Shown here one piece after another: positions 41,422-49,771 of a stretch of 64,000 nt of DNA. How positions within the stretch are numbered: position 1 is the stretch's first letter; the number at the start of each line of letters is the position of its first letter. This DNA comes from Nitrososphaerota archaeon. GTDB taxonomy: Archaea; Thermoproteota; Nitrososphaeria; Nitrososphaerales; Gagatemarchaeaceae. The stretch spans positions 1-64,000 of the forward strand of contig JAFLZH010000005.1 in the NCBI GenBank assembly GCA_029785615.1. Direction: 5' to 3'. The position numbers and the translations under genes were made by a program. Below the pieces are notes generated by a model. That model was not told where the DNA came from. It was given only the letters and a program-made list of their open reading frames with translations, and did not search any database.

Positions 41422-42462
41422 TCACCAGTCTATCTTTGCCACACCCGCGAACGCCAGGGAGTCCAAAAGCCCTTCGGCGTATCCGACGCTCAGCATAGCC
41501 ATCTCGTCTTCTCCATTGGCCAAGAAGCTCTCGGCGTCTTTCATGTAGAGCTCCGCGTTCTCCACAACGTGCTCGTACTGCCCGCCCAGCTTCGGTTTCA
41601 ACGACCCTAACGCCTTCTTCGTCTTGGCCACGTACTTCGGGACGAGCACCTGGGCGGTTCTGAGCATACCCTCCGAGTTGCTCCTGACATCGTTAGCCGA
41701 GAGGGCGAATATGGCTGCGACAGCTTCGACCTCGGAGAAGTGCAGCCTTCCCGGGATTATGACGCTGTGGGGAGGCTCTCCGTACTCTCCCTTGGAAAGT
41801 TCACCGATGCTCCCGGCGGCTGACTTGTATCCTTCGCGGCCGAGCCTCGAGAGAACGATGGCGAACGTCTCCTCAGACACCACCCCGCGCTTGAAGTTCG
41901 CCTCGGCCAGTAGCAGCCCTGCCATGGCGCCCCCTGGAGTCACTCCGTCTCCGCTCTGGGCGTCGTACTCGAGCAGGAGAAGGGTATGTGCGCCCTCCAG
42001 GAGGTTTGAGTGGATGATGTGGTAGGCTTGGGTCAGCTTGCTCACTGACTCCCTTGTCACAGTGACAGTTCTGGCGAACTTGTACGAATGCAATCCGCTT
42101 TCGCTGGCGGCGGCGGAGGCGATGCTCGCCGAGTGCACGACGCGGCTTTCGATTCCCTTCTTGATGGCCCTCGCCCTGAGCTCGTCGTGGGTGGTTGCTA
42201 TCATCGGATCTCCCAGCGTCGCTAGCGCAACTCTCTTGGTCGCCGCCTCGTCCAATATCCTGCTCCCGCTCTCAACGAATTCCCTGTCCACAACTGTCAG
42301 TTCCTTCCCTGTGGCCCTCGTAATCTCCCTTAGAAGGGCGGGCTCATGAGGCGTGGTGTAGTATTCGAGGTATACGATATCGGCCGCCTTCAACTCGTCA
42401 AGCGCTTCTAGTGATGCTCCCCTGGGCCCGAGGCCCAGTCCGACGAACGCGAGACGGCCCAT
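41422..42462 (-). CDS. dphB: Diphthine synthase with C-terminal extension
   Basis: LAFVGLGLGPRGASLEALDELKAADIVYLEYYT...TLGDPMIATTHDELR...GLHSYKFARTVTVTRE. Confidence 0.92.
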   Translation of the reverse strand: MGRLAFVGLGLGPRGASLEALDELKAADIVYLEYYTTPHEPALLREITRATGKELTVVDREFVESGSRILDEAATKRVALATLGDPMIATTHDELRARAIKKGIESRVVHSASIASAAASESGLHSYKFARTVTVTRESVSKLTQAYHIIHSNLLEGAHTLLLLEYDAQSGDGVTPGGAMAGLLLAEANFKRGVVSEETFAIVLSRLGREGYKSAAGSIGELSKGEYGEPPHSVIIPGRLHFSEVEAVAAIFALSANDVRSNSEGMLRTAQVLVPKYVAKTKKALGSLKPKLGGQYEHVVENAELYMKDAESFLANGEDEMAMLSVGYAEGLLDSLAFAGVAKIDW

Positions 42463-44460: not shown

Positions 44461-44668
44461 GTGTCGCGCGTGAAGTCAAGAGACGTCGCTGCCGCCGTCT
44501 TGATTCTTATCCCGTTCATCTTCCTCTTCGGTGTCCCGTTCTACAACGTCGTGAATCCCGAGTGGGGAGGCGTCCCATTCTTCTGGTGGTACCAGATGGT
44601 CTGGCTGGTCATATGCGGCGTCCTGTTCTTCGTGGCTGCCAACCTGCTGGGGAGGAAGTCCTGGCATG
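44461..44668 (+). CDS. DUF3311-like small membrane protein; the frame runs on to 45024, apparent loss of native stop
   Basis: DVAAAVLILIPFIFLFGVPFYNVVNPEWGGVPFFWWYQMVWLVICGVLFFVAANLLGRKS, then non-membrane read-through sequence. Confidence 0.65.
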
Positions 44669-46204
44669 CTAGCCATCGACGGAATGGTCACCTTCCTGGC
44701 GCTCTTCGTGGTCTTCGTGTTCCTTGGTCTCTAGGGAGGCAGATGGAGGAGAGGGGACATGAACAACCTGGGCGAGTGGGCCTAGGCTGGGAGGCGGCTG
44801 GGGACCGTCCTGGTCTGATTCCTGGTGGGTGCAGACCTGTACACCGCGTACACATTCATCTCCGTGCCTTCCGGAGCCTACGCTGGCATATTCGGCGTTC
44901 CAGGAACGGGGGCGTTCTACTTCTTCGCTGTACCTTACGTCGCTCTAACGTTCGGCATTGCCATCGTGGTTATGCCGAAGCTACGGAAGGTCGCACACGA
45001 GAAGGGCTACGTAACGGCCGCTGACTTCGTGAAGGGGACCTTCAACAGCAGGACTTTGGCCATGTTGGTGGCAATCGTCGGGATAATCGCAGAGCTTCCT
45101 TACATCGCGCTGCAGATAGTGGGGATGCAGGCTGTCATCATCGCCATGATTCACGGCATGGGCGACGTGACCACCATCTCCGAGCTCGCCCTGATCGTCG
45201 CTTTTATCGTCCTGGCCGCCTTCACATATGCCAGCGGCCTCCGCGGCGCGACACTGAAAGCAGTTATGAAAGACATCCTCATCTTCTTGGGGATTATCGG
45301 GGTCCTGGCTGTCGTAGTCTCGTCAGGAGGCTTCAGTAGCGCCTTCTCCGCAGCAGCAAGTTCGAAGGCTGTGCTGCCGACCCTGCCGGTAACGCTCACT
45401 AATACATACTGGAGCACCTTCCTCGTGAGCGCCCTAGCGCTGTACCTCTATCCGCACGCTGTAAACGGCGTTCTCAGAGCCCAGGACTCCGAGAAGCTCC
45501 GCAAGAGCACCTCGCTCCTGCCATTCTATGGCCTCGGGCTCGGGGCGCTAGCGATGTTCGGCGTCCTAGCATATGGCAACAGCGGGGCGCTGTCGTTCCT
45601 GCACCAGTATCCGGCAGCCTCCCAAGGAATCCTGGTCGTCCCGGCCATGATCCTTAGCACCCTGCCTTCTTGGTTTGCCGGGGTTGCCCTCCTGGGGATA
45701 TTCATCGGCGGGCTCGTCCCAGCCGCGATCATGGCCATCGCCCAGGCTAATCTGCTGACCAGGAACATAGTGAGGGAGTTCAGGCCGAACATGACTTCTC
45801 GGGGCGAGACACAGCTCTCGAAGTGGGTCTCAGTCGCCTTCAAGTTCATCGCCCTCGGCTTCGTGTTCGTAGTGGCCACCACCTATGCCACACAACTGCA
45901 GCTCTTCGGCGGCATCATGATCGTCCAAACGCTTCCGGCTGTCTTCATCGGTCTCTTCACCACACGGATGAACAAGCATTCTCTTATCACCGGCCTCCTC
46001 GTGGGCGAGGCAGTCGGCGTGTGCCTGATGGAGCTGAAGAACAACTTCTCAATCTGGCACTATTCGACTTACGCCCTGCCTTCTCCTCTGGGGGTTCTCT
46101 ACATCGGCCTGGTCGCCCTTGCAATCAACCTGGCCATCGTGTTCGCGTGGAGCCTCGTGTTGCCGCCAAAGCGCACGGCAGCGGCGCCAGCGGTTCCAGC
46201 ATAG
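44666..46204 (+). pseudogene. SSS-family sodium:solute (MctP-like) symporter with three in-frame stops near the N-terminus (intact ORF 44825..46204)
   Basis: In one frame from ATG 44666: [71 protein letters not shown]...; stops TAG 44732, TAG 44783, TGA 44816. Confidence 0.8.
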
Positions 46205-47257: not shown

Positions 47258-47311
47258 GCCAAGTCAAGATTTCGCTTCATTTATAGGCCGAGCCAGGCCG
47301 ACTCCAGCACG

Positions 47312-47824
47312 TTGTACACCAGCACAGTGGTCGACGACGAGGCCCACGCCATGACAATCATGAGGGGGATGGAAGAGGCGTGGGGGCGCAAGGACGAGTC
47401 GTATTTCATCGAAGTCCTCAGGAACGAGCCGAGCCTGGTCCTCCGTGTCCACGCCGTCTGCATCTTGGCGGAGGTCGGAGGGGAGGGGTCTGTCCCAGCC
47501 CTGGCGGACGTCTTGCTCCATGATCCAGACCCCTTGGTCCGCCATGAGGCGGCTTTCTCCCTTGGCCAAATCGGGCTCTCGGAGGGGAACAAAGCGCTGG
47601 CCAAGGCGGTCATCGAAGACAAGGATCCAATCGTCCGGCACGAGTCGGCGGCAGCCCTGGGCTCAGTCGGGAGCGCAGATTCGGAGGATGTCCTCGTAAA
47701 GGCAGAGTCCGACTCGGACGAGATGGTCAGGAACTCGGCGAAGGCTTCGCTCTTCAACATACGGTTCCTGAGACAGTACGCCTCTGCCGGCGCGACGGCC
47801 AGGGAAAGGGCGCCTAGGCCCTAG
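47312..47824 (+). CDS. HEAT-repeat protein with paired His-Glu motifs (deoxyhypusine hydroxylase-like half)
   Basis: DPLVRHEAAFSLGQIG...DPIVRHESAAALGSVG...MVRNSAKASLFNI. Confidence 0.85.
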   Translation: MYTSTVVDDEAHAMTIMRGMEEAWGRKDESYFIEVLRNEPSLVLRVHAVCILAEVGGEGSVPALADVLLHDPDPLVRHEAAFSLGQIGLSEGNKALAKAVIEDKDPIVRHESAAALGSVGSADSEDVLVKAESDSDEMVRNSAKASLFNIRFLRQYASAGATARERAPRP

Positions 47825-48615: not shown

Positions 48616-48824
48616 GCCCCGGCTGCGCGATAGAGCCCGCCTGCTTTCTCAAGCTTCGCCAATGCGGCTTCCACGCTGTCCGTCTCGCCGACCACCCTGT
48701 TCTCGATCGCCTTCTCCCAAAGGCCGATGAACGTCTCCAGGCCCTCTTTCACCTGGCCGTCCTTTCGGGCCTTGGTCCTTTCTAGCTGCCGCAGGTAGTC
48801 GCGGACGCTGGCGCCTTCGCTCAC
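48612..48824 (-). CDS. Hypothetical small helical protein
   Basis: 70-aa ORF ending next to the upstream GHMP gene on the same strand (4-nt overlap). Confidence 0.55.
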   Translation of the reverse strand: MSEGASVRDYLRQLERTKARKDGQVKEGLETFIGLWEKAIENRVVGETDSVEAALAKLEKAGGLYRAAGA

Positions 48825-49771
48825 AGGATCCTCGCCTCGCCGCCGACTCCGGAGAGGTAAGACCTGTAGCCGAGCTTCTCCATGGCATTCAGCACCTTGT
48901 TCTGATGCTTCTCGTCGGTGTTGACGAAGACCGACGGCCCGGTCTGCATCGAGTAGTACGCCTTCACCCCGTCTCCCCGTAGATCCCTCACCTTTCGGAT
49001 GATCCTGATCGAGTCCTCGGTCATTATGACCAGACCGCTGTCACCGGTCATGGTCAGACTGTGGAGCTCGAGCGTGTCCCGTTCCGCCAGCCTGCCCACA
49101 GCATCCAGGTCGTTCCCTCGGATGGCCCTCTCCATCTCGTCACACCGCTTCTGCGCGGACTCAACCCTTGCCTGAAAGAAGGGGGACGTGAGAACCTCCC
49201 GATGCGCATCTTCGGTCCTTATCCTGGACGGCAGTGGCACGACCACCATGCGAAGGTCCATCGCCTTGGCGTCGGCGAACCTCTCAGCGTAGGTGCTTTC
49301 GTCATCCTTCCCAGCATACAGCCTCGAAAAGCCGCCTACCAGAGACCTGGAGGCAGAGGCTGCGAAGAGCCGAGCCGTCCTGGACAGCCTGGGAAGGTCG
49401 GTGGACTCCCCCGAGAGCAGCCTGTGGGTCAGGAGGGTCAGCGCCGCGCCTGCGGAAGACGAGTAACCTATCCCCTTCGCCTTTCCCGTGGGGACGTTCC
49501 GACTGTCAATCCTGAAGTCGGTCGCCTTCTTTGAGGGGTCAATCCTGGAGACGACGCCCTGGAGCCGCGCGTTGGCAGAGTCGTTCTGTTTCCCTCCTAT
49601 GAACACGCCTCCCTTCTCGGAGTCTGTGATAGAGGCCTCGGTCTTCATGCAGGTCGTGTTGACTGAGATGCTGTCGTGGTAGGGGAGCCTCAACTTCCAG
49701 TCCTTGAGGCCGTGGTACTTCACCAGCGCCTGCATGGTGAACGCTTCAGCCCTGAATCTCGCCAACGTCAC
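48821..49771 (-). CDS. GHMP-type (diphospho)mevalonate decarboxylase-family protein
   Basis: ALVKYHGLKDWKLRLPYHDSISVNTTCMKTEASI...GKAKGIGYSSSAGAALTLLTHRL...YYSMQTGPSVFVNTDEKHQNKVLNAM. Confidence 0.85.
   Translation of the reverse strand: MTLARFRAEAFTMQALVKYHGLKDWKLRLPYHDSISVNTTCMKTEASITDSEKGGVFIGGKQNDSANARLQGVVSRIDPSKKATDFRIDSRNVPTGKAKGIGYSSSAGAALTLLTHRLLSGESTDLPRLSRTARLFAASASRSLVGGFSRLYAGKDDESTYAERFADAKAMDLRMVVVPLPSRIRTEDAHREVLTSPFFQARVESAQKRCDEMERAIRGNDLDAVGRLAERDTLELHSLTMTGDSGLVIMTEDSIRIIRKVRDLRGDGVKAYYSMQTGPSVFVNTDEKHQNKVLNAMEKLGYRSYLSGVGGEARIL

Follow-up and report, generated by a model that had tools for sequence, protein, structure and literature searches.

We identified, in a 64,000-nucleotide stretch of a Nitrososphaerota contig (JAFLZH010000005.1, positions 1 to 64,000; hereafter the window), a gene for a 170-amino-acid HEAT-repeat protein that carries exactly half of the active site of deoxyhypusine hydroxylase (DOHH). 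The gene is a concrete candidate, with predicted activity, for a hydroxylase that has never been identified in Archaea, and its family is near-universal in cultivable ammonia-oxidizing archaea. If active, the enzyme would be a di-iron oxygenase assembled from a small repeat protein present in two copies, and would suggest an origin for the two-half DOHH of eukaryotes.

Hypusine, a rare amino acid that in humans is completed by DOHH on a translation factor, was reported in Archaea more than thirty years ago, and deoxyhypusine synthase (DHS) is found throughout. Sulfolobus acidocaldarius is an archaeon with confirmed hypusine (PMC5178350), and according to papers published in 2016 and 2018 no archaeon has a known DOHH orthologue (PMC5178350, PMC6105217). 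Our literature search, which mostly covered journals outside subscription, turned up no mention of an archaeal DOHH by name, no discussion of hypusine in Thaumarchaeota beyond listings of DHS and no report on the hypusine content of the archaea that carry the HEAT gene.

A HEAT protein with two invariant His-Glu dyads

The gene and its product have the following features, all on the forward strand.

47280-47285, forward strand: TATA-like element (tttata), about 27-32 bases 5' of the TTG start, recognized from the sequence
47312-47824, forward strand: open reading frame of the half-DOHH-like HEAT protein (170 amino acids, TTG start)
47531-47572, forward strand: predicted helix 74-87, with the first dyad (AlphaFold2 model, mean pLDDT 90.8)
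47543-47548, forward strand: first dyad, His78-Glu79, aligned to human DOHH H56-E57 and H207-E208; invariant in 115 of 115 sequences
47564-47569, forward strand: Gly85-Gln86 after the first dyad, aligned to DOHH G63-Q64 and G214-Q215; invariant in 112 of 112 sequences
47627-47668, forward strand: predicted helix 106-119, with the second dyad (AlphaFold2 model)
47639-47644, forward strand: second dyad, His110-Glu111, aligned to human DOHH H89-E90 and H240-E241; invariant in 115 of 115 sequences

The TTG start is supported by relatives whose reading frames open with ATG, GTG or TTG at this codon (M/V/LYTS...), and by the TATA-like element at 47280, the spacing of which is consistent with a leaderless transcript. 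A Pfam domain scan of the protein returned HEAT_2 (E = 2.6e-27) and also HEAT_PBS. The dyads lie in VRHEAAFSLGQIG (residues 78-79) and, 32 residues later, in VRHESAAALGSVG (residues 110-111), followed by VRNSAKASL, exactly as described in the original prediction; the C-terminal tail is basic (ARERAPRP). The AlphaFold2 model, built from 75 natural sequences, has helices at residues 10-25, 29-38, 42-55, 58-70, 74-87, 90-102, 106-119, 124-131 and 137-156, which form one extra N-terminal helix and then four HEAT hairpins. Both dyads are near the N terminus of their predicted helices.

Loss of the HE residues among orthologues had been set beforehand as a reason to abandon the DOHH idea, and no such loss was found: both dyads are invariant, and always 32 residues apart, in all 115 distinct orthologues (112 of 112 in an earlier set), down to about 37% identity. 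Further invariant residues in the 112-sequence alignment are R45, L52, D71, G85, Q86, V108, R109, G117, G120, V139, S142 and A143. As a control we counted 157 helix-B starts in HEAT proteins from related archaeal genomes, including the two of the HEAT protein itself. The only two HE among them are its own dyads, leaving none at the 155 comparable positions of generic proteins. Because the dyads are invariant in both sets and absent from the control positions, strong constraint must act on them in this family, and they are not a general habit of archaeal HEAT repeats.

Relationship to human DOHH

The human DOHH sequence used for comparison is identical to PDB entry 4d4z over residues 1-289. The family profile matched its N-terminal half (residues 14-135) with 71.5 bits and, as a separate match, its C-terminal half (164-278) with 69.9 bits, placing HE on HE and LGQ on LGQ in both cases; the best generic archaeal HEAT control reached 55 bits. 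When the HE letters of DOHH were masked, the scores of the halves dropped into the generic range, at 52 and 50 bits (controls up to 55). The dyads and their register are the special part of the resemblance, as judged from the alignments. Because the masked scores are at the level of generic HEAT proteins, common descent with DOHH beyond the HEAT fold is not demonstrated and the dyads could be convergent; a separate common descent with DOHH is likely. The idea that the protein resembles half of DOHH thus stands at the level of the profile, where each DOHH half aligns over the four HEAT hairpins and the HE dyads coincide; the caution attached to it is that the similarity beyond HE is no better than that of generic HEAT proteins.

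When 30 genomes were searched with human DOHH, the HEAT gene was the top match in each of the 18 carriers, with E-values of 4e-9 to 8e-15; the non-carriers among them gave no match better than E = 0.003. Raw E-values were rejected as proof of orthology, as HE masking removes the excess over generic HEAT proteins. Locally, the window protein is 29-34% identical to the DOHH halves, and a soil Bathyarchaeota protein reaches up to 50% identity over 114 residues; the two DOHH halves are 40% identical to each other. Sequence searches of solved structures returned DOHH as the best natural protein, the other matches at that level being designed alphaRep/HEAT proteins. With Foldseek, too, DOHH was the best natural protein (E = 7.3e-5, TM 0.70), with designed HEAT repeats ranking ahead. 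In a phylogenetic tree the DOHH halves group together on very long branches and without a resolved partner; we therefore set the tree aside as a test of the descent of DOHH from the archaeal family.

In human DOHH, H56, H89, E90, H207, H240 and E241 have been assigned to iron, and E57, E90, E208, E241 and two glycines to the deoxyhypusine side chain, with G214 reported as substrate-binding (PMC9117371). The other glycine is printed as G65 in that paper, and residue 65 of our checked DOHH sequence is Met. The reported iron residues and the substrate residues E57, E208 and G214 align to conserved archaeal residues, and the substrate-side glycine (the G63/G214 position) is matched by the invariant G85 (112 of 112).

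Like DOHH/Lia1 (human 4d4z), which has four HEAT hairpins per half, the archaeal protein is built of HEAT hairpins, and each DOHH half matches it over the whole repeat block. The two proteins also share the register of their HE dyads, two per half (H56-E57 and H89-E90), a Gly-Gln after the first dyad and an arginine and alanine of the preceding repeat. Unlike DOHH, in which two fused halves form a chain of 302 amino acids with four dyads, the archaeal protein is a single half with two; it also has the extra N-terminal helix, and its dyads are 32 rather than 33 residues apart. The chain that defines DOHH has two halves and eight repeats, and the AlphaFold2 model has one block of four hairpins plus the extra helix; for this reason we do not file the protein as DOHH by architecture. 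Four HE motifs would be brought together only in a homodimer. No natural tandem, full DOHH-like version of the family was found among the fetched archaeal loci. An apparent 468-amino-acid fusion in locus L029 was discarded, as its upstream part looks like a noncoding frame.

Other HEAT-repeat families

The archaeal protein shares HEAT_2 and HEAT_PBS matches with CpcE, CpcF, NblB and YibA (HEAT_2/PBS-lyase HEAT-like proteins), but falls far below every curated NCBIfam cut-off (for example NblB, 37 of 300 bits; CpcE, 15 of 330) and, unlike the control repeats, carries HE dyads.

Ammonia-oxidizing archaea have a second HEAT family of about 170-230 amino acids (L048:4069-4770, L049:3446-3958, L184-L187 and L190). 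As in the 170-amino-acid family, there are two HE dyads; they are conserved in seven of the seven sequences seen, with a spacing of about 33 residues. The second family differs in forming a separate clade (support 100/100), in having an RWD motif and no LGQ, and in matching human DOHH more weakly. It may be another dyad metalloprotein.

The hypusine pathway in carrier genomes

Absence of the translation factor aIF5A or of DHS had been named as grounds for giving up the DOHH idea, and both are present: aIF5A in 16 of 16 genomes tested, and DHS in 8 of 8, including the genome nearest to the window, G001, which matches 100% of the sampled words and was used in place of the window's own assembly. 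The aIF5A loop KxGKHG(S/A)AK could be read in 15 of the 16 genomes; in the sixteenth the match is broken.

Most carriers (G006, G016, G037, G043, G045, G049 and G059) have two copies of DHS-like genes, which lie close together in G045 and G043. The product of the second gene may be another compound, such as homospermidine.

Distribution, neighbourhood and oxygen

The contigs closest to the window are from Nitrososphaerota metagenome-assembled genomes (MAGs), and Candidatus Gagatemarchaeum (group 1.1c) is among the matches at 63% identity. More distant orthologues, 43-52% identical, are found in Nitrosotalea, Nitrosopumilus, Nitrososphaera, Nitrosocosmicus, Nitrosocaldus and soil Bathyarchaeota (family f72), with further orthologues in families f31 and f46. 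In aerobic Nitrososphaerales (group 1.1c and ammonia oxidizers), the HEAT gene belongs to the core genes. Searches for plasmid and viral relatives of the protein found none.

DOHH chemistry requires O2. In a phylum sample of 397 genomes, 91 of which have a strong orthologue, haem-copper oxidase subunit I (COX1) is present in 90 of 91 carriers versus 77 of 306 non-carriers (Fisher 5e-41, a value inflated by relatedness). Within Nitrososphaerales, all ten full-length carriers have the oxidase, and the HEAT gene is absent from all seven COX1-negative genomes (families f4, f7, f12, f13 and f15); six further genomes have the oxidase and lack the HEAT gene. In Bathyarchaeia, the class of f72, the gene is carried by 17 of 201 genomes, all in f72. 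The oxidase is present in 13 of these 17 versus 4 of the 184 others (the remaining four carriers are MAGs of 77-87% completeness), and f72 holds 14 of the 17 COX1-positive genomes in the Bathyarchaeia sample. The HEAT gene thus accompanies aerobic life in at least two or three lineages, and aerobic life does not require it.

Within genus g88 of f46, the HEAT gene is present in G132 and G216 and missing from G162 and G168, all four of which have COX1; this patchiness suggests recent loss or gene transfer.

In genome searches the gene was absent from the aerobic Sulfolobaceae-like family f36, which we infer to be Sulfolobaceae on grounds that include its four oxidase copies, and a search of S. 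acidocaldarius gave no HEAT_2 protein above the limit applied. As Sulfolobus has hypusine but lacks the HEAT gene, its hypusine, if enzymatically hydroxylated, is made by something else, and the hydroxylation step may have more than one solution in Archaea.

We found no conserved neighbourhood of the HEAT gene with aIF5A or DHS. A dphB-like gene lies a few kb away in group 1.1c and soil Bathyarchaeota, with rad50/mre11-like genes instead in ammonia oxidizers. Lacking a tie to aIF5A or DHS, gene neighbourhood was set aside as evidence of function.

Proposed function

In favour of a DOHH-type reading are the fold as predicted, the dyads that never vary and stand in DOHH register, the separate profile matches to the two DOHH halves, the occurrence of aIF5A and DHS in the genomes tested, and the link to aerobic genomes. 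Against it stand the masked scores, the tree, the absence from f36 and Sulfolobus, the lack of linkage to aIF5A or DHS, and the patchiness in g88. We consider it quite probable that the protein has the build of a DOHH half, depends on a putative metal and uses O2. That it is more specifically a half-length, homodimeric DOHH-type di-iron oxygenase, with deoxyhypusinated aIF5A as its most likely substrate, has in our judgement slightly better than an even chance, with iron, dimer, O2 chemistry and substrate all deduced by analogy with DOHH.

In such an enzyme, each chain would fold into four HEAT hairpins. By alignment to DOHH, H78, H110 and E111 of each chain would be ligands for one iron, and E79 and G85 would lie on the substrate side. 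Two chains would pair face to face, like the two halves within one eukaryotic DOHH chain, and the resulting two-fold homodimer would rebuild the whole residue set and enclose a putative di-iron centre that activates O2. The deoxyhypusine side chain placed on aIF5A by DHS would then be hydroxylated to give hypusine. Going further, such a C2-symmetric homodimer with a di-iron centre could be the missing archaeal DOHH of aerobic Nitrososphaeria, Caldarchaeum-like lineages and soil Bathyarchaeota, an oxygenase that retains the unfused layout which gave rise, by duplication and fusion, to the two-half DOHH of eukaryotes; we offer this tentatively and regard it as possible, if on the unlikely side.

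The metal dyads and the link to oxygen would fit equally well if an O2-using HEAT enzyme of the same build, with di-iron or another metal, hydroxylated some other protein or a small molecule of aerobic Thermoproteota in place of aIF5A, or sensed iron or oxygen. The absence from Sulfolobus and the patchy distribution speak against a universal role in aIF5A modification, and the two-dyad family of ammonia oxidizers suggests that the chemistry may serve several substrates. However, the pathway partners DHS and aIF5A are present, gene linkage points to no other substrate, and we know of no characterized enzyme other than DOHH with such a dyad arrangement; a substrate other than aIF5A therefore seems rather unlikely to us.

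The two remaining explanations dispense with oxygenase chemistry. As HE dyads alone do not fix the identity of a metal, the fold and dyads of DOHH might hold a different metal or serve as a metal-dependent scaffold, but the aerobic distribution is hard to explain without O2 and makes this improbable. Very improbable, in our view, is a generic HEAT scaffold whose dyads are structural, or arose by chance in one lineage. Apart from its dyads the protein does have an ordinary HEAT sequence, and designed HEAT repeats score equally well or better; yet the H and E of both helices never vary among the 115 orthologues, against 0 of 155 in control repeats, and the dyads are kept across lineages from Nitrososphaeria to Bathyarchaeota.

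Other genes in the window

A TP_methylase protein fused to a C-terminal DUF357 is encoded at 41422-42462 on the reverse strand and is diphthine synthase-like by context; a few kb separate this gene from the HEAT gene in group 1.1c genomes and also in those of soil Bathyarchaeota. Two overlapping open reading frames at 44461-46204 on the forward strand appear to encode a small DUF3311-type membrane protein and then a sodium:solute symporter, the listed start of which (44825) overlaps the DUF3311-type frame by 200 bases and gives no Pfam match. At 48821-49771, on the reverse strand, the window encodes a protein that resembles diphosphomevalonate decarboxylase and has a further match to the mevalonate-3-kinase C-terminal domain.
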